From assembly GCA_024998815.1 (NCBI GenBank), contig JACEUQ010000002.1, positions 132,501 to 196,500 of the forward strand: a stretch of 64,000 nucleotides of DNA, given 5' to 3'. The notes beneath the pieces are model-generated. The model made no database searches, was not told the DNA's origin, and saw only the letters and a list, made by a program, of their open reading frames with translations. The stretch's first letter is position 1, and the number at the start of each line of letters is the position of its first letter. The DNA comes from Opitutus sp. (GTDB taxonomy: Bacteria > Verrucomicrobiota > Verrucomicrobiia > Opitutales > Opitutaceae). The position numbers were made by a program, and so were the translations under genes. Of the stretch, positions 27,532 through 41,226 are shown piece after piece.

Positions 27532-27637
27532 CAACGTCCAACATTCAACATTGAACATTCAACGTCCAACATCGAACCGTTGAACATGAACGCCCCCCGT
27601 TGGATGTTGGACGTTCAATGTTGGATGTTGGATGTTC
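27532..27637. repeat. Inverted cluster of AACATTCAAC-type units
   Basis: The left arm (27532-27573) contains AACGTCCAAC, ATTCAACATTGAAC and ATTCAACGTCCAAC units. The right arm (27598-27637) has the complementary GTTGGATGTTGGACG and TTCAATGTTGG units. A second copy lies at 33503-33618. Each arm is itself built from 7-8-bp near-repeats, so many alternative hairpins are possible. The rest of the 27506-27816 gap shows no gene. Confidence 0.8.
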
Positions 27638-27816: not shown

Positions 27817-29850
27817 ATGGTGAATTTTTCAGGATCTCAAGAACGCGGCGTCTTTACCCTGAAATTTCTGCAAACCTCATTTCTGCTCGGCGCCGTCGCC
27901 GTCGCCCCCTTCACCGTTCTAGCGGGCGCGGCCCCGGTCGAAAAATTGGCTAATCTAGAGCTTGAGCAACTCATGCAGATGCCCGTCGAGTCCGTCACCG
28001 GCGCATCCAAATACGATCAATCCATCCGCCAAGCTCCAGCCAGCGTCACCGTACTCACCGCGGCCGACATCCGCAATTACGGCTGGCGCACCTTGGCCGA
28101 CGCCTTGCGCAGCGCCCCCGGCTTCCACATCCGCAGCGACCGCTTTTACGATTACATCGGCAACCGCGGTTTCACCCGCTCCTTTGACTACAACTCGCGC
28201 ACCCTCGTGCTCGTCGACGGCCACCGCATCAACGACGCCATTTACCAACAGGGCTCGGTGGGCACCGAGTTTTTGCTCGATCCCGACCTCATCGACCGCA
28301 TCGAAATCATCCGCGGCCCCGGCTCGTCGGTCTACGGCAGCAGCGCCTTCTACGGGGCGATCAACATCATCCCAAAAAAAGGCCGCGAGTTGGCCGGTGG
28401 ACAGGCCTCCGTCAGCGTCGACTCATCCCCCGGGGCCAAGGGCCGCGTGTCCGTGGGCAACCGCACGCCGGGCGGGGTCGAGTACCTGGTCTCGGCCACC
28501 GCCAGCGACTCGCGCGGCGAGAGCAATTTTGCCCTGCCGCAAGCCTGGCGCGATGCCACCGGCTCCAACGCAGAGAAGTCCACGGACAACGACGGCACGA
28601 CCCAGCGCCAGGCCTACGCCCGCGTCGCCTGGCGCGGACTGGAGAGCGAAGCCGCCTACGGAAAGCGCCAAAAGGACGTACTGCCGACCGTTTACATCAC
28701 CCAGCTAGACCCCAAAGCCAGCGCCATCGACGAGCGCGGCTACTGGCTGCTGCGCGCCACCGGCCAGCCCCTGCCTGACGCCACCCTCACCGCCAAAACC
28801 GGCGTGGATTACTACCACTACGACGGCCAGTTCCTGAACCTCGTAGAACCCGACACCACCAACACCACTAGCGCCCACTTCGACCAGCATCACTCCACCG
28901 CCACCGCCGCTTCACTCAACAACGAGGTGCGCTGGCATCAGCTCTTCGTCGAAGGCCATAGCCTGCTGCTCGGCATCGAACTTCAAAACAATCTCAAGCA
29001 GGAGACCGACAACACGAACCTCACCCACCCCGACGATTCCTCGCCGTCCACGCGCGCGTCCACCTCCAACATCAGCCCCTTCGCTCAAGTCGATTACCAG
29101 CTGCTTAAACCGCTGCGGCTTTCGCTCGGCGCACGCTACGACAACTACAGCACGGGCGAGAGCGCGGTGACCCCGCGCACCGGCCTGATTTGGGACGCCA
29201 CCCGCAGCACCACGGTCAAACTGCTCTACGGCGAAGCCTTCCGAGTACCCAACCTCGAAGAGCGCAACCCCACGGAGCCCTCGGTGACGGTCAACCCCAA
29301 CCTCGGACCCGAAAAAAACCAGAGCTGGGAGCTCAGTTGCGACCAGCGCTTCTCGAGCGTGTGGGCCGCCGATGCACGGCTATACTACACCCAGTCCACC
29401 GACCTGATCCTCGACTACGCCAACACCTCCAATTTCACCACCCAGGGCAGCGAACTGGGCGGCACCGCCCGCTTCGACTCCGGCCTGCACCTGCGCGCCT
29501 CGGCCTCCCTCCAGCAAACCCAGGACGAGGCCACCTCGCGCGATGTGGGCGACGCCCCGCAACTGCTCGGCAAACTCAACGCCACCGCCCCCGTTTATGG
29601 CAACTGGCTGCGCGCCTCCACCGAACTGCAGTACGTCGGTGCACGCTACGATTTCAGCACTGCACGCTCGAAGATGAACGACTACGTGGTGGTGAACTGC
29701 ACGCTGCGCGCCGCGCCGGTGTGGCAACGCTGGGAAATTTCGCTCTCGGTTTACAACGTGGCCAACTCACGTTGGTCTGACGCCAAAAACGACGGCACCA
29801 TCATCTCCCCACCGCGCACGGTCATCCTGCGTTTGGTCCGTAATTTCTGA
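27817..29850 (+). CDS. TonB-dependent outer-membrane receptor
   Basis: A 677-residue outer-membrane beta-barrel. A signal-like segment (FLLGAVAVAPFTVLAGAA) lies at about 20-42. The plug domain starts LEQLMQMPVESVTGASKYDQ and contains VTVLTAADIRNYGWRTLADAL, LVLVDGHRI and IEIIRGPGSSVYGSSAFYG. The barrel ends with a C-terminal Phe (VILRLVRNF), the usual BAM signal. The ligand is unknown. It is the first of four tightly packed genes; the stop overlaps the next ATG by one base. The closest plug resemblance is to the receptors paired with YfiR-like proteins rather than to SusC. Confidence 0.93.
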   Translation: MVNFSGSQERGVFTLKFLQTSFLLGAVAVAPFTVLAGAAPVEKLANLELEQLMQMPVESVTGASKYDQSIRQAPASVTVLTAADIRNYGWRTLADALRSAPGFHIRSDRFYDYIGNRGFTRSFDYNSRTLVLVDGHRINDAIYQQGSVGTEFLLDPDLIDRIEIIRGPGSSVYGSSAFYGAINIIPKKGRELAGGQASVSVDSSPGAKGRVSVGNRTPGGVEYLVSATASDSRGESNFALPQAWRDATGSNAEKSTDNDGTTQRQAYARVAWRGLESEAAYGKRQKDVLPTVYITQLDPKASAIDERGYWLLRATGQPLPDATLTAKTGVDYYHYDGQFLNLVEPDTTNTTSAHFDQHHSTATAASLNNEVRWHQLFVEGHSLLLGIELQNNLKQETDNTNLTHPDDSSPSTRASTSNISPFAQVDYQLLKPLRLSLGARYDNYSTGESAVTPRTGLIWDATRSTTVKLLYGEAFRVPNLEERNPTEPSVTVNPNLGPEKNQSWELSCDQRFSSVWAADARLYYTQSTDLILDYANTSNFTTQGSELGGTARFDSGLHLRASASLQQTQDEATSRDVGDAPQLLGKLNATAPVYGNWLRASTELQYVGARYDFSTARSKMNDYVVVNCTLRAAPVWQRWEISLSVYNVANSRWSDAKNDGTIISPPRTVILRLVRNF

Positions 29851-30470
29851 TGCCGCGCCGGTCTCCCATGGTTCGCTTTGCCTGCCGCAGCGCACTTGCC
29901 CTGTTCTGGCTGGGCGTGCCCGCCCTCGTCCCGTGCCTGCGCGCGGCCCCGCAGGCCAACTCGGTCGCGATCGACACCGACACGGCCACCGCCGCCTACC
30001 TGCTCAACTTCGTGCGCTTCACCGAATGGCCCGCCAGCGCTTCGGCTGGCACCTCGCGTCCGAGCTCGGCGAGTGAGCCCTATGTGATCGGCGTGTCCGG
30101 CAGCCGACCGTTACGCGATACGCTTATCCGCCTCGTCGAGGGCCAGCAGGTTCGCGGACACCCCGTGCAGGTCCTGCGGATTAAGGACGAGACCGACCTC
30201 GCCGAGTGCCACCTGGTCTACCTCAATCCCTCGCTCGACGATGAGGGCCAGGGCGTGCCGATCCCGACTGCGCTCGAGGCATTGCGGGGCAAATCCGTAC
30301 TCACCATCTCGCCTGCCACGGACTTCCTTGTCCAAGGTGGACTCGTGCAACTGTACCGAGCGGATTCGTATCTGCGCTTCGATATCGCTGGTGCGGCAGC
30401 TCGCGCCGCCGGCCTCAACCTCAACTCCCGAATTCTGGCCCTAGCCCGGCCCGTACCGGTTAGCCGATGA
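29850..30470 (+). CDS. YfiR family periplasmic protein (DUF4154)
   Basis: A 206-residue protein with a signal peptide (LALFWLGVPALVPCLRAAPQA). The YfiR pattern follows: AAYLLNFVRFTEWPA, YVIGVSG, VRGHPVQVLRI, ECHLVYLNPS, GKSVLTISPATDFL, GGLVQLYRADSYLRFDI and a C-terminal SRILALARPV. In proteobacteria YfiR is a periplasmic repressor that binds the CHASE8 domain of the diguanylate cyclase YfiN. Here the next gene encodes a kinase with a CHASE8-like sensor, overlapping by ATGA, which suggests an equivalent contact. Confidence 0.92.
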   Translation: MPRRSPMVRFACRSALALFWLGVPALVPCLRAAPQANSVAIDTDTATAAYLLNFVRFTEWPASASAGTSRPSSASEPYVIGVSGSRPLRDTLIRLVEGQQVRGHPVQVLRIKDETDLAECHLVYLNPSLDDEGQGVPIPTALEALRGKSVLTISPATDFLVQGGLVQLYRADSYLRFDIAGAAARAAGLNLNSRILALARPVPVSR

Positions 30471-32152
30471 AGACGATTCCACCCCTGACACACTCGATCC
30501 GCAGGCATGTGCTGAGCTTCGCCCTGCTCACCTGCGCCTGCGTGCTGTTACCCGTGGGAGGTGGACTATTTACCTACCACTATCAACAAACCCAGGCCCG
30601 CCTGAGTGATTCCCTGGCCGCCACCGCCCGCATCACCGCAGTCAACGTGGCTGCCGCACTCGCCTTCAACGACTCCACGACTGCCACCGAACTACTCCAT
30701 TCGCTCAGCCACGACCCGCTGATTACCTGCGCGAAGATCGAAGATACGAACCACGCACTGTTCGCTCTCTACCTCAGCCCACTTGCTCCAGTAAATACGA
30801 CCTGCGCTGAATTCTGCGACAAAGTTAACCCCTATAAAACGGCGATTCCCATCGTCCACGACGGGGTAACCTATGGGCTCCTCACGGTCGCTGCCGACAT
30901 CCGCAGCGAGCTGCGCCAAGCGATCGTGACCTGGGGAAGTGTGTGTGCGGCGGCATTCCTACTGGCTGGAACGGCGGTCTTTTTTATCGCGCGGCGTTTC
31001 CAACGCCAGATCGCCCAACCCATCACGGAGCTAGCCGCCACCGCACTGCGCGTGGCGCATGAACGCGATTTCGCAACCCGGGCTCCGGTGACGGGTTGCA
31101 GCGAAGTCATCGAGTTGTCCATCGCCATCAACCTGATGTTTACCGAGATCGCGCGCCGCGACGCCCGGCTCGCACGGCAAGTCTATAAACTCAACCGCGA
31201 GATCGAGGAGCGTGAGGCCGCCGAGGAGGCGCTACGCCACAACCAGCACGCCATGAGCCAACTCGCCCGTGAAGCCGGCATGGCCGAGGTCGCCTCCGGG
31301 GTGATCCACAATATCGGCAACACCCTGACGAGCATCAGCATTTCCAGCGACTTAGTAGCGACCCGGCTGGCCAACACCCGCCGCCGCTCGCTGGCCACGT
31401 TGAGCCAGTTGCTCGCCCCCGCCTCAACGCAAACGGCGGCCGTTTTCAGCGCCCATGCCGACGGCGCCGAACTCCGCACGCTGTTGGCGCAAATCACCGC
31501 AGCTCTGGCCACCGATTTGACCGAAACCACCCGGCTGGTCGAAATCCTGCAAGCCGGCAACAGCCACCTCAAACGCATCGTCGCCAGCCAGCAGTCGCTC
31601 GCCCGTACCCACCGCCACTGCGAGTTTTTTATATTACGCGAGGCGCTTCAGGAAGCCCTTCTGCTCGCCCGCACCATCGCGCGTCAACCGTGTGTCATCG
31701 CTGGGTGCCCGCTCGATGCCACGTGCGGCCGAAATGGAGACTGCCTGCGCAGCGGGCCCCACAGCTCAATCGACGAGTGTGCGCTCGACGCCACTGAAGT
31801 TTACGCCGACCGCAACCTGGTGGTGCAAATCCTCGTCAACCTGTTGATCAACGCCCACGACGCCATCGCCACTCACACACCGGCTGCCCCACTCATTTCC
31901 CTGACCATCGGACCGGCCCACGGCGGCCTACTGAGCCTCACCGTGACGGACAACGGCGAAGGCATAGCGGAGGACAAACTCCTGAGCCTGTTCACCTATG
32001 GCTACACCACTAAGGTAAGCGGCAACGGGTTTGGGCTTCACAACTCGGCCAATGCCGCCCGAATGATGGGCGGCGAGCTTTTCGTCAGCAGCCCAGGCCC
32101 CGGACTTGGGGCCACGTTCACGCTTCGACTTCCCGTTCATTCCAACGATTAA
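30467..32152 (+). CDS. Sensor histidine kinase with CHASE8-like input domain
   Basis: A 561-residue membrane kinase. Membrane spans lie at about 17-37 and about 155-177. The periplasmic part between (DSLAATARITAVNVAAALAF, then TATELLHSLSHD) matches the CHASE8 domain of YfiN. A HAMP domain (ITELAATALRVAHERDF), a coiled coil, a dimerisation part with phospho-acceptor candidate His in GVIHNIGNTLTS, and a HATPase_c (NLLINAHDAI, DNGEGIAEDKL, GFGLHN) follow. An unusual Cys-rich insert (CVIAGCPLDATCGRNGDC) lies just before the N box. There is no GGDEF domain. Confidence 0.92.
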   Translation: MKTIPPLTHSIRRHVLSFALLTCACVLLPVGGGLFTYHYQQTQARLSDSLAATARITAVNVAAALAFNDSTTATELLHSLSHDPLITCAKIEDTNHALFALYLSPLAPVNTTCAEFCDKVNPYKTAIPIVHDGVTYGLLTVAADIRSELRQAIVTWGSVCAAAFLLAGTAVFFIARRFQRQIAQPITELAATALRVAHERDFATRAPVTGCSEVIELSIAINLMFTEIARRDARLARQVYKLNREIEEREAAEEALRHNQHAMSQLAREAGMAEVASGVIHNIGNTLTSISISSDLVATRLANTRRRSLATLSQLLAPASTQTAAVFSAHADGAELRTLLAQITAALATDLTETTRLVEILQAGNSHLKRIVASQQSLARTHRHCEFFILREALQEALLLARTIARQPCVIAGCPLDATCGRNGDCLRSGPHSSIDECALDATEVYADRNLVVQILVNLLINAHDAIATHTPAAPLISLTIGPAHGGLLSLTVTDNGEGIAEDKLLSLFTYGYTTKVSGNGFGLHNSANAARMMGGELFVSSPGPGLGATFTLRLPVHSND

Positions 32153-32159
32153 CATTTCC

Positions 32160-33452
32160 ATGTACTCAGCTATTTCCCGCATCCTGATCGCAGACGACAC
32201 CCCGGCACTGCACGAATCCTACCGCAACATCTTCGCGGTCGAGACCGACGCGTTGGCTGGCCTGCCTGGCATGGCAAAATTCGCCCCGAATCACATGGAG
32301 CCCAACTCCCCGGTGGCGCCGACCTACGCGCTCACCCATGTGAAACAAGGCGAGGAAGCCCTGGCCACCGCCTCCAACGCCCAACAAATCGGCGAGCCCT
32401 TCGCGCTGGCCATCCTCGATGTGCGTATGCCACCAGGCATCGACGGGGTGCAAACCGCCCGCCGCCTGCGCGAGCAACACCCCGACATGCAGATCGTGCT
32501 GTGCACGGCGTTCGCCGACTACTCGTGGAGCGACCTGCTGAATGCGTTTCCCGAAAGCGACGGCGTTCTGCTGCTCAAAAAGCCTTTCGACGCGATTGAG
32601 ATCCACCAGATTGCCGCCGCCCTCTGCCGCAAGTGGCACTTGGCTATGGAGAATCAAGCACACGTACGTAACCTGGAAAAACGGGTCGCGGAACGCACGG
32701 CGCAACTCACCCAAACCACCGCCGAGTTGGCCTCCGCGCTCACTGCCGCACAAGGGGCCAATCGCGCCAAAGACGCCTTCCTGCGTTGCGTCAGTCACGA
32801 GCTCAACACGCCGCTCAACGGCATCCATGGTGCCGCCAGCCTGCTCTGCCTGCAGACTGACCCGACGACCCAGAAAATGGGCCAAATCATCACCGAATCG
32901 AGCTCCAGGCTCAACCGGATGTTCAACCGGATTCTGATCTATCTTCAGCTGGACGGAACCCCTGCACGGACGCCCCAGCCCCTGCAACCGGCCGGGTTGC
33001 TTGCGCGCTCGGTTGAACCCCATCGCACGGCGGCGCAGGCCAAGGGCCTGACGCTTCAGTCCAGTTTCACCGCCCCGCCCCTGCTCATGGTTCACGGCCG
33101 TTCCGGTCTGGTTGAAACCGCCCTCGATAACCTGATGGAAAACGCCATCAAGTTCACCTCGACCGGATCGGTCTGCGTAAACCTAAACTATGATCACCCC
33201 ACGCAGACGCTGATCATTGAAGTCACCGACACGGGTGAAGGAATCGTGCAAAGCCAGCGCGAGAATTTGTTCAACCTGTTCACCCCGGGAGATACCAGCC
33301 TGACGCGCAAGCAGTCCGGGGCGGGGCTGGGCCTGGCGCTGGTCTCGAGAATCGCGCGTGTAATCGATGGCGAAATCAGCATGCGCCCCGGTGTACCAGT
33401 CGGCAGCGTGTTCACGCTTAAGGTGCCCTGCACGGTGCCTGAAACGAAGTAG
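32160..33452 (+). CDS. Receiver-histidine kinase hybrid
   Basis: A 430-residue soluble protein. The start is ATG at 32160 (MYSAISRILIADD), 7 bp after the previous stop. An N-terminal receiver (ILIADDTPALHES, phospho-Asp in LAILDVRMPPGIDG, Lys in LLKKPFD) is followed by a coiled coil, HisKA with SHELNTPLNGIHGAAS, and HATPase_c with NLMENAIKF, DTGEGI and GAGLGLALV. The receiver at the N-terminus suggests it accepts phosphate from the preceding kinase or is tuned by it. No DNA-binding output lies in the operon, so the final target is elsewhere. Confidence 0.92.
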   Translation: MYSAISRILIADDTPALHESYRNIFAVETDALAGLPGMAKFAPNHMEPNSPVAPTYALTHVKQGEEALATASNAQQIGEPFALAILDVRMPPGIDGVQTARRLREQHPDMQIVLCTAFADYSWSDLLNAFPESDGVLLLKKPFDAIEIHQIAAALCRKWHLAMENQAHVRNLEKRVAERTAQLTQTTAELASALTAAQGANRAKDAFLRCVSHELNTPLNGIHGAASLLCLQTDPTTQKMGQIITESSSRLNRMFNRILIYLQLDGTPARTPQPLQPAGLLARSVEPHRTAAQAKGLTLQSSFTAPPLLMVHGRSGLVETALDNLMENAIKFTSTGSVCVNLNYDHPTQTLIIEVTDTGEGIVQSQRENLFNLFTPGDTSLTRKQSGAGLGLALVSRIARVIDGEISMRPGVPVGSVFTLKVPCTVPETK

Positions 33453-33502: not shown

Positions 33503-33618
33503 AACGTCCAACATTCAACGTTCAACATCCAACCTTCAACGGGGAGCAGCGATCAGCGAGTTAACGCTTGGGTGCTCAACGTTGGATGTTGAACGTTCAA
33601 TGTTGGATGTTGGACGTT
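33503..33618. repeat. Inverted cluster of AACATTCAAC-type units, second copy
   Basis: Left arm 33503-33541 (AACGTCCAACATTCAACG, then TTCAACATCCAAC) and right arm 33577-33618 (CAACGTTGGATGTTGAACG, then TTGGATGTTGGACG) are complementary. It sits between convergent genes and could act as a two-way transcription end. It is the same family as 27532-27637. Confidence 0.82.
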
Positions 33619-39990: not shown

Positions 39991-41226
39991 TTATTTATAG
40001 AAAAAGCTGAAGGTAATCTCTTGGGATTCGCCGAGGACGCCAATCATATCGGCGGGCCAGGCGCCATAAGGTGCGCGGGCGACGATGGCGCTCACGCAGG
40101 CATCCTGCGCACTGCGTCCGCCACCACCGGAGACTTTGACGATCTCGGGGACCGCGCCCTTGGCGTCGAGTCGAAACACCACCGTGACCTTGGTGCCCGA
40201 GGGCGGCGAGACGCGGCTCTGGTCAAGAATGCGGTCCCACTGGCTTTGCACCGTCTCGATGAGTTTCTGTATGTATTCGCCATAGTTCGACCACTTGGCG
40301 TTGTAGGCGACCGCACCGATGTTCTCGGTGCCCAGCGCGCGATTGGCCAGCGGGGAGGCGCGGCCGCGGGCGATACTGGGGGCGAGCGTGGGGCGGGCCT
40401 GCGGGCGTTTGGCGTCCACCTTGTAATAAAGACCCGTGCGAGCGCCGGTGTCGGTTTTGGCGTCGACGGTGCCCTCGACGCGCTCGGTCACGGTGGCGGA
40501 GGCTGCAGGGGCGGCGGAGGCGACCTGCGTGCCGTAGCCCGACGGGCTGTCGCCCTGGAACTTTTCGGATCCGGGCAAGGGCGACTGCGCGCGGCGGGCG
40601 GCCTCTTGCGCGGCCGTCTCGACTGCGGCTGACGGCGCAAGCTCGGCGGGCTGCAGGGTCGTAGCAGCGGGCGAGGGCTGCGACTTGGGCGGGGGGGGCG
40701 TCGGCGGTTGGACGTTGGCCGGACGCGACTCAGAGTGATGGCCTTCGACGAGCACGGTGGAATCGGTGGACGGGTCGCCCTTGGAGGCGGGCGCGTCGCT
40801 CTGGCCCTTGGGCGTGGGCAGGAGTTGGGCAACCTGTTGGTTTTGCGCGGCGACGAGATCGGTTTTGTCGGGGGCGTTGTCGGGCGAGTTGGGGTTGGCC
40901 TCGACGAACTGCGGCAACTGCACGCGCGGCGGCTCCGGTGGCGCGGGCACGGGGACGACCACGGGGGCCAATTCGATCTGAAACTCCTTGGATGCCCAAT
41001 CCTCGGCGACCACCTCGGCGCTGTCGGGACTGATGAGTTGTTCAATCTGCGGAGCGAACAGCAGGATCAGGCCGTGAACGAGAAGCGTTGCGACGACGCC
41101 GATTTGCACGGCGCGGGTGTCGGCGTGCGTCGACCAACGCCACCAGCGCCCGCCGGCCCGCGCACGCTGACGCCGGGGAGGCGACGCGGGCGCGGGTGCT
41201 TCGGGTTGGGCGGACGGTTTGAGCAT
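39991..41226 (-). CDS. TonB/TolA-like energy-transducing protein
   Basis: A 411-residue protein. A basic N-terminus is followed by one membrane span (IGVVATLLVHGLILLFA, about 42-58). A long Pro/Ala-rich periplasmic linker then leads to a C-terminal domain of about 100 residues (YIQKLIETVQSQWDRILDQS, then VTVVFRLDAKGAVPEIVKVS). This domain is of the TonB/TolA C-terminal type. It might energise receptors such as that at 27817. ExbB and ExbD are not in the window. The Maf gene is directly upstream (19 bp). Confidence 0.85.
   Translation of the reverse strand: MLKPSAQPEAPAPASPPRRQRARAGGRWWRWSTHADTRAVQIGVVATLLVHGLILLFAPQIEQLISPDSAEVVAEDWASKEFQIELAPVVVPVPAPPEPPRVQLPQFVEANPNSPDNAPDKTDLVAAQNQQVAQLLPTPKGQSDAPASKGDPSTDSTVLVEGHHSESRPANVQPPTPPPPKSQPSPAATTLQPAELAPSAAVETAAQEAARRAQSPLPGSEKFQGDSPSGYGTQVASAAPAASATVTERVEGTVDAKTDTGARTGLYYKVDAKRPQARPTLAPSIARGRASPLANRALGTENIGAVAYNAKWSNYGEYIQKLIETVQSQWDRILDQSRVSPPSGTKVTVVFRLDAKGAVPEIVKVSGGGGRSAQDACVSAIVARAPYGAWPADMIGVLGESQEITFSFFYK

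Follow-up and report, generated by a model that had tools for sequence, protein, structure and literature searches.

The stretch of Opitutus sp. DNA analyzed here (64,000 nucleotides, positions 132,501 to 196,500 of contig JACEUQ010000002.1; hereafter the window) carries four plus-strand genes across positions 27817 to 33452 that encode, in order, a TonB-dependent receptor (TBDT), a YfiR-like periplasmic protein, a CHASE8-HAMP histidine kinase, and a receiver-histidine kinase (Table 1). The open reading frames (ORFs) are those of the original prediction, a reading of the sequence alone, and both the ORFs and Pfam bear out the layout it described, with a YfiR gene overlapping that of a CHASE8 kinase, a TBDT gene before the pair and a receiver-kinase gene after it. 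The YfiR gene begins with an ATG that overlaps the TBDT stop codon by 1 nt, and the YfiR stop and kinase start overlap by 4 nt (ATGA). From the sequence, the receiver-kinase likely starts at the ATG at 32160, 7 bases past the kinase stop, rather than at the TTG at 32106; Pfam was run on the longer 448-aa frame. The genome (G000, 4.24 Mb) holds a single DUF4154 match, the window YfiR, and five TBDT plug domains, that of the window TBDT among them. The closest named relatives of this kinase come from metagenome-assembled genomes labeled Opitutaceae (87% identity) and Opitutus (62%).

Table 1. Features of the gene unit and other features mentioned in the text. Coordinates are those of the window unless one of our handles for a locus (L) or genome (G) precedes them.
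Feature	Coordinates	Strand	Basis
TBDT, 677 aa, plug and barrel	27817..29850	+	Pfam, NCBIfam, nearest solved structures
YfiR/HmsC-like periplasmic protein (DUF4154), 206 aa	29850..30470	+	Pfam, PDB profile matches, model folds
CHASE8-HAMP histidine kinase, 561 aa, HNxGN-type H-box (His281), without receiver	30467..32152	+	Pfam, residues, model
CHASE8 periplasmic domain, residues 44-141, AAxxF-like motif ending in Phe67	30596..30889	+	Pfam, motif from PMC3375315
Cys-rich insert, residues 414-438, within ATPase domain	31706..31780	+	Alignments, low model confidence
Receiver-histidine kinase, 430 aa, CTAxxDxxW receiver subtype, kinase His213	32160..33452	+	Pfam, motifs
YfiR-linked CHASE8 chemoreceptor	L051:5978-7603
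YfiR-linked CHASE8 chemoreceptor	L065:5081-6760
YfiR-linked CHASE8 protein with GAF-SpoIIE phosphatase output	L085:4579-6771
Receiver-GGDEF response regulator	G000:C1:748576-749052 (L116:1378-2568)
Palindromic repeats, both sides of the unit	27533-27636, 33503-33618
TonB-like protein	39991-41226	-	By eye
Transposase-like ORF, 497 aa	21712-23205	-	By eye

The window YfiR matches Pfam DUF4154 (PF13689) at 4e-33 (115 bits, cut-off 24.9), and the only strong PDB matches of this family profile are YfiR entries. Its structural model (mean predicted local distance difference test score [pLDDT], 85.9) finds the YfiR structures 4zhu, 4yn9, and 4yn7 as best folds, with an E value of 7.5e-8 and a template modeling (TM) score, on the target, of 0.75 against 4zhu_B; the next-best folds are substrate-binding proteins, namely 8wgl and 5z6v from Rhodothermus marinus and the L-Trp-bound 3lft. 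The site at which YfiR meets YfiN was placed around V160, F162, and L183 (PMC3375315), and by hand count on the alignment the window equivalents are Leu175, Phe177, and Leu198, which keep the hydrophobic character. The TBDT matches the Pfam barrel (E, 1.9e-32) and plug (3.3e-22) families, with the colicin I receptor and BtuB as its closest solved structures by sequence. Pfam lists plug and barrel families only, with no STN domain, and we therefore rejected a FecA-like signaling TBDT as a candidate.

The kinase carries CHASE8 (6.3e-14; 52.5 bits, cut-off 27), HAMP (2.4e-6), and HATPase_c (1.3e-17) domains; Pfam places HATPase_c where a cyclase would carry GGDEF, which is absent, and gives no HisKA match at 0.1. 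Its model has a mean pLDDT of 83.7, with block means of 91 to 95 across residues 21 to 150 except at 101 to 130 (74 to 89). Since kinase cores dominated the fold search, which used the full-length model and did not probe CHASE8 separately, the CHASE8 assignment draws on the Pfam score and the model confidence, both of which uphold the domain as originally proposed. The receiver-kinase matches Response_reg (4e-11), HisKA (3.1e-12), and HATPase_c (2.2e-19). The H-box of the CHASE8 kinase reads SGVIHNIGNTL, and phospho-acceptor residues are kept in both proteins (His281 and Asn458 in the kinase; Asp12/13, Asp87, Thr116, and Lys141 in the receiver; His213 in the second kinase).

The original prediction had also pointed to a Cys-rich insert near the ATPase domain of the kinase. 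The insert is present (Cys409, 414, 420, 426, and 438), but among 65 + 10 aligned CHASE8 proteins it occurs only in the window and in locus L032, whose protein is 87% identical and keeps all of these cysteines except Cys409. It was rejected as a conserved sensor, given that the kinases of L114, L110, L111, L112, L113, and L097 and both kinases of L098 lack it, and with pLDDT below 50 at residues 407 to 417 and 420 to 438 it is, by alignment and model, a lineage-specific, low-confidence loop. Three periplasmic cysteines of the kinase, Cys88, Cys113, and Cys117, also occur in L032 and may serve in redox chemistry or metal binding.

The order TBDT, YfiR, kinase, receiver-kinase is the same in the window and in L032, L110, L111, L112, and L114, with the TBDT of L032 cut by a contig end. 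Of the 5 same-genus loci with upstream sequence, all but the window (4 loci) have a hybrid histidine kinase gene ahead of the TBDT, and L110 has a small receiver ORF between the two. Scanning genome contigs with the kinase returned 7 loci, 2 of them full-length relatives. Across Verrucomicrobiota, 22 of 194 genomes contain 34 DUF4154 copies. Among the matches listed, at least 30 of these 34 have a match to the CHASE8-kinase model in the same orientation and no more than 573 nt downstream, at least 29 of them within 79 nt; we use this YfiR-first count because the alternative figure of 51/52 is biased, its loci having been chosen by CHASE8. The NCBIfam YfiR-like model served to sample two further groups, the phylum that includes a Desulfobacter genome (matches in 14/118 genomes; 19 of 20 hits taken, with YfiR kept by the gene caller in 17, not in L147 or L149) and the class to which a Methylophilus genome belongs (17/143 genomes; 20 stretches holding 22 of 30 hits, which with L119 give 23). 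CHASE8 comes next in 16/17 YfiR of the Desulfobacter phylum, and a TBDT lies immediately upstream in 15/17. The full arrangement, with TBDT immediately upstream and CHASE8 next, is found for 22/34 YfiR in Verrucomicrobiota (hand count, best six TBDT candidates per genome), 15/17 in the Desulfobacter phylum, and 6/23 in the Methylophilus class. The gene order is not due to chance, as it recurs across the genus and the phylum and in two further sampled groups, less consistently in the third, and the YfiR-CHASE8 pairing anticipated from the window is widely conserved. We also observed tandem TBDT-YfiR-TBDT-YfiR arrays in L151 and L165, which in L151 lead into one CHASE8 kinase.

From the receptor side, scoring the best six candidates per genome against the NCBIfam TOL_0244 TBDT model gave a bimodal distribution, with 20 receptors at 443 bits or more and the next at 182. 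YfiR lies directly downstream in 19 of these 20. The window TBDT (119.6 bits in this survey) is not in the high-scoring set, and an N-terminal TBDT motif gave no clean separation of YfiR-linked receptors.

Sequence divergence ties YfiR most closely to the sensor domain of its neighbor. Over 48 loci with all parts, and computed without a species-tree control, YfiR and CHASE8 distances correlate with a Spearman rho of 0.61 (partial, 0.56), compared with 0.24 (0.07) for YfiR and the kinase core, part of the same protein as CHASE8, and 0.21 (0.06) for YfiR and the TBDT; the observed rho was reached in 0, 0, and 1 of 500 permutations, respectively. Split-half controls (YfiR, 0.36; CHASE8, 0.54; kinase, 0.70; TBDT, 0.85) make noise in the TBDT or kinase distances an unlikely cause of the low correlations. 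L118, the same locus as L142, was excluded from the split-half controls, from the neighbor counts in the two further groups, and from later analyses.

A residue at the expected interface follows the same division. The YfiR site of YfiN has been placed on an AAVVF motif (PMC3375315). The window CHASE8 carries AAALAF, a match made by eye, in which Phe67 is the counterpart of YfiN F70. This column holds Phe in 82 of 85 YfiR-linked CHASE8 proteins (the rest two Tyr and one Leu), compared with 6 of the 17 without a linked YfiR (Fisher p, 2e-8, kinship ignored), with the fragment L139 excluded and L052, L147, and L149 moved from unlinked to linked on account of a YfiR in the cluster. Together with the conservation across three sampled groups and the YfiR-CHASE8 co-divergence, the lack of Phe67 in 11 of the 17 unlinked proteins argues against the genes being mere neighbors, that is, against an ordinary importer beside a kinase that senses its ligand directly through CHASE8. 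The existence of 17 CHASE8 kinases without an adjacent YfiR (after reclassification), some in genomes without a detected DUF4154 (G075, G140, and G155), fits such an arrangement, which we nevertheless consider very improbable. Eight loci (L081, L082, L083, L084, L090, L092, L093, and L096) encode CHASE8 hybrid kinases with neither an adjacent YfiR nor Phe67, and in L081, L084, and L092 these are preceded by similar secreted-looking proteins of 240 to 246 aa and of unknown kind.

The kinase and the protein encoded after it are matched by subtype. In all 15 loci examined that have an HNxGN-type CHASE8 kinase, the next gene carries a receiver of the CTAxxDx[ST][WF] type. Of the other CHASE8 proteins, 88 in all, none has such a receiver behind it, and 75 of these have 700 nt or more of downstream sequence. 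An earlier, stricter receiver pattern gave 13/15 versus 0/89, with the remaining two reading CTAYSDYSF. Of the 15 partners, 14 match the kinase profile and are receiver-kinases; the other one, in locus L162 of the Methylophilus class, has the same receiver type fused to GGDEF-EAL. Because the 15 partners keep one receiver type, the phosphotransfer step seems, on these sequences, to be fixed, with variation in what lies downstream of it.

Variation also appears in the outputs of the CHASE8 proteins themselves. We surveyed Pfam output domains in 81 YfiR-linked CHASE8 loci (52 + 29; the fragment L140 was not scanned and another frame of L139 was used), and HATPase_c occurs in 49/52 and 23/29. In the first set MCPsignal occurs in 2/52 and SpoIIE in 1/52; in the second, GGDEF and EAL occur in 5/29 each and a nucleotide cyclase domain in 1/29. 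Outputs confirmed singly are those of methyl-accepting chemotaxis proteins (MCPs) in L051 and L065, SpoIIE in L085, and GGDEF-EAL in L155 and L159. Given that the only GGDEF match of the window genome belongs to a receiver-GGDEF response regulator, cyclic di-GMP (c-di-GMP) could, speculatively, lie at the end of the chain, reached by phosphotransfer to this protein.

We regard a trans-envelope phosphorelay running from TBDT through YfiR and kinase to receiver as the likely function of the unit. The TBDT would import a substrate or report its own occupancy, and periplasmic YfiR would bind the CHASE8 domain and set the activity of the kinase, probably as an inhibitor from which the TBDT or its ligand frees the kinase. 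The HNxGN-type kinase would then pass phosphate to the receiver of the protein encoded next, and the kinase domain of this second protein may hand the signal to an unlinked response regulator. For the outer-membrane-to-cytoplasm chain originally envisaged, with YfiR ruling a kinase and not a cyclase, co-divergence and interface residues thus favor the YfiR-kinase part; for the TBDT part the evidence is gene order.

A number of observations weigh against this relay. All of the evidence is comparative and drawn from sequence. The TBDT, YfiR, and kinase score under their NCBIfam cut-offs (121.6 bits versus 645 for TOL_0244, NF053590; 110.4 versus 125 for TOL_0243 YfiR-like, NF053591; and 113.5 versus 194 for HK_near_YfiR_like, NF053592, though the neighborhood of the kinase fits). 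The unit is dispensable, with a close kinase (at least 44% identity) in 6 of 13 same-genus genomes among the matches listed; again among those matches, 4 of the 34 Verrucomicrobiota YfiR (G018:3418057, G126:C27:56504, G086:C7, and G129:C136) have no CHASE8 match within 1 kb, the first having one about 3 kb off in the same cluster. In the Methylophilus class CHASE8 adjoins only 14/23 YfiR, with a TBDT immediately upstream of 11/23, although misses are likely there because the profiles were built from Verrucomicrobiota loci. One of the 20 high-scoring TBDTs (G018:284178) lacks a YfiR. Although weak, the correlations of YfiR with the TBDT and with the kinase are likewise higher than almost all of the shuffled values, so that some shared history is present in every pair, and TBDT-YfiR co-divergence is nearly nil after allowing for CHASE8 and kinase. 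Kinship also limits the independence of the loci (the window, L032, and L114 belong to a single lineage, and L111 pairs closely with L112, as does L055 with L059); of the 11 unlinked proteins without Phe67, 8 look, by sequence and gene order, like one subfamily. Finally, the Cys145-Cys152 disulfide reported as essential to Pseudomonas aeruginosa YfiR (PMC4655355) is missing from the window protein, whose only cysteines are residues 12, 29, and 120, with Cys120 aligning by eye with Cys110; redox control through this known structural disulfide was accordingly rejected as a candidate.

The relay allows two versions of how the TBDT acts on YfiR. In the first, YfiR would sense the ligand: the TBDT does no more than import a small molecule, and YfiR, with its one-lobe fold resembling that of substrate-binding proteins, binds it and alters its grip on CHASE8 with no TBDT-YfiR contact. 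Substrate-binding proteins are the best model folds after YfiR itself, and TBDT and YfiR diverge largely independently, as expected of an importer. The YfiB site of P. aeruginosa YfiR was reported to bind vitamin B6 and L-Trp (PMC4887326), though with an affinity in the ten-millimolar range. TBDT and YfiR also occur together where no CHASE8 gene follows (L156, L165, and L145), which tells somewhat against a sensor and suits direct contact as well. In the second version the TBDT stands in for YfiB, and the periplasmic face of the occupied receptor sequesters YfiR and frees the kinase. The 1-nt gene overlap and the position of the TBDT immediately upstream of YfiR in the two other groups agree with this, as does the finding of no OmpA-like protein among the scanned neighbors, the genome at large not having been searched for one; the near-zero partial correlation of TBDT and YfiR does not, nor does the fact that TBDTs of unlike kinds adjoin YfiR. 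We consider this stand-in role rather unlikely. The ligand-through-YfiR version is slightly favored, as the fold and the reported binding suggest a small molecule and the divergence of the TBDT is largely unrelated to that of YfiR; it comes close to an even chance without reaching it.

The neighbors do not identify the ligand, as flanking genes vary among the same-genus loci, except that a convergent gene of similar size follows the unit in both L032 and the window. By Pfam, a PP2C phosphatase gene lies upstream of the window unit and a convergent FG-GAP gene downstream. Palindromic repeats built on GTTGGATGTTGGACGTTCAATGTTGGATGTT are found on both sides of the unit, and this repeat has 24 matches in the genome (with at most 3 mismatches), compared with 0 for a reversed control. 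Two minus-strand ORFs were assigned by eye, one transposase-like and the other, some 6.5 kb downstream of the unit, TonB-like; neither has a Pfam match at 0.001.

More broadly, we tentatively suggest, as a possibility somewhat short of probable, that TBDT and YfiR form a general outer-to-inner-membrane input device that is independent of STN and FecR and connects by way of CHASE8 to interchangeable outputs (histidine kinases, hybrid kinases, chemoreceptors, SpoIIE phosphatases, and GGDEF-EAL proteins), here through a receiver-kinase and possibly to the lone receiver-GGDEF protein. If the wiring is as proposed, many TBDTs would have a dedicated signaling route distinct from FecA-type signaling, one that the kinase-receiver pair makes directly testable with few purified proteins.

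In FecA-FecR-type signaling a TBDT likewise heads an envelope signaling unit, but the window unit has, by Pfam, no STN domain, FecR, or sigma factor. In the LuxP-LuxQ, TorT-TorS, CpxP-CpxA, and WalK-YycHI systems a soluble or anchored extracytoplasmic protein sets the state of a kinase; the folds of these partners differ from that of YfiR, and the gene units of these systems are not known to include a TBDT. NCBIfam families NF053590, NF053591, and NF053592 describe the same three gene kinds as the window (the last a histidine kinase near a YfiR-like protein), but the window proteins fall below the curated cut-offs. The YfiBNR and HmsCD c-di-GMP systems share with the window the YfiR fold, the hydrophobic interface residues, and a CHASE8-like sensor with an AAxxF motif; the window differs in having a histidine kinase in place of GGDEF, in lacking the Cys145-Cys152 pair, and in having no YfiB among the scanned neighbors. 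In the literature covered, experiments present YfiR/HmsC only as a brake on c-di-GMP synthesis, and, as far as our literature search reached, the YfiR-kinase pairing and the receptor link lack a laboratory test. That search, which did not extend to subscription journals and supplements, found no dedicated study of a TBDT-YfiR-kinase unit. YfiR control of a kinase is itself not new, having been proposed in 2012 with YfiR-YfiN cores in which kinases or MCPs take the place of the cyclase; the outputs reported behind such cores were histidine kinases, GGDEF-EAL, and MCPs (Malone 2012, PMC3375315). In the YfiR-YfiN[PAS/HAMP] core of that paper, as in the window, the neighbor of YfiR is a periplasmic-sensor/HAMP protein with a histidine kinase, and the distant examples aligned there include Opitutus terrae YfiNR, its output domain not stated; the main text, Table S4 aside, has no occurrence of TonB, and no receiver-kinase partner appears in the passages covered. 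To this earlier proposal the present analysis adds comparative, sequence-level evidence for the wiring, namely the YfiR-CHASE8 co-divergence, the distribution of Phe67, and the kinase-receiver subtype pairing.

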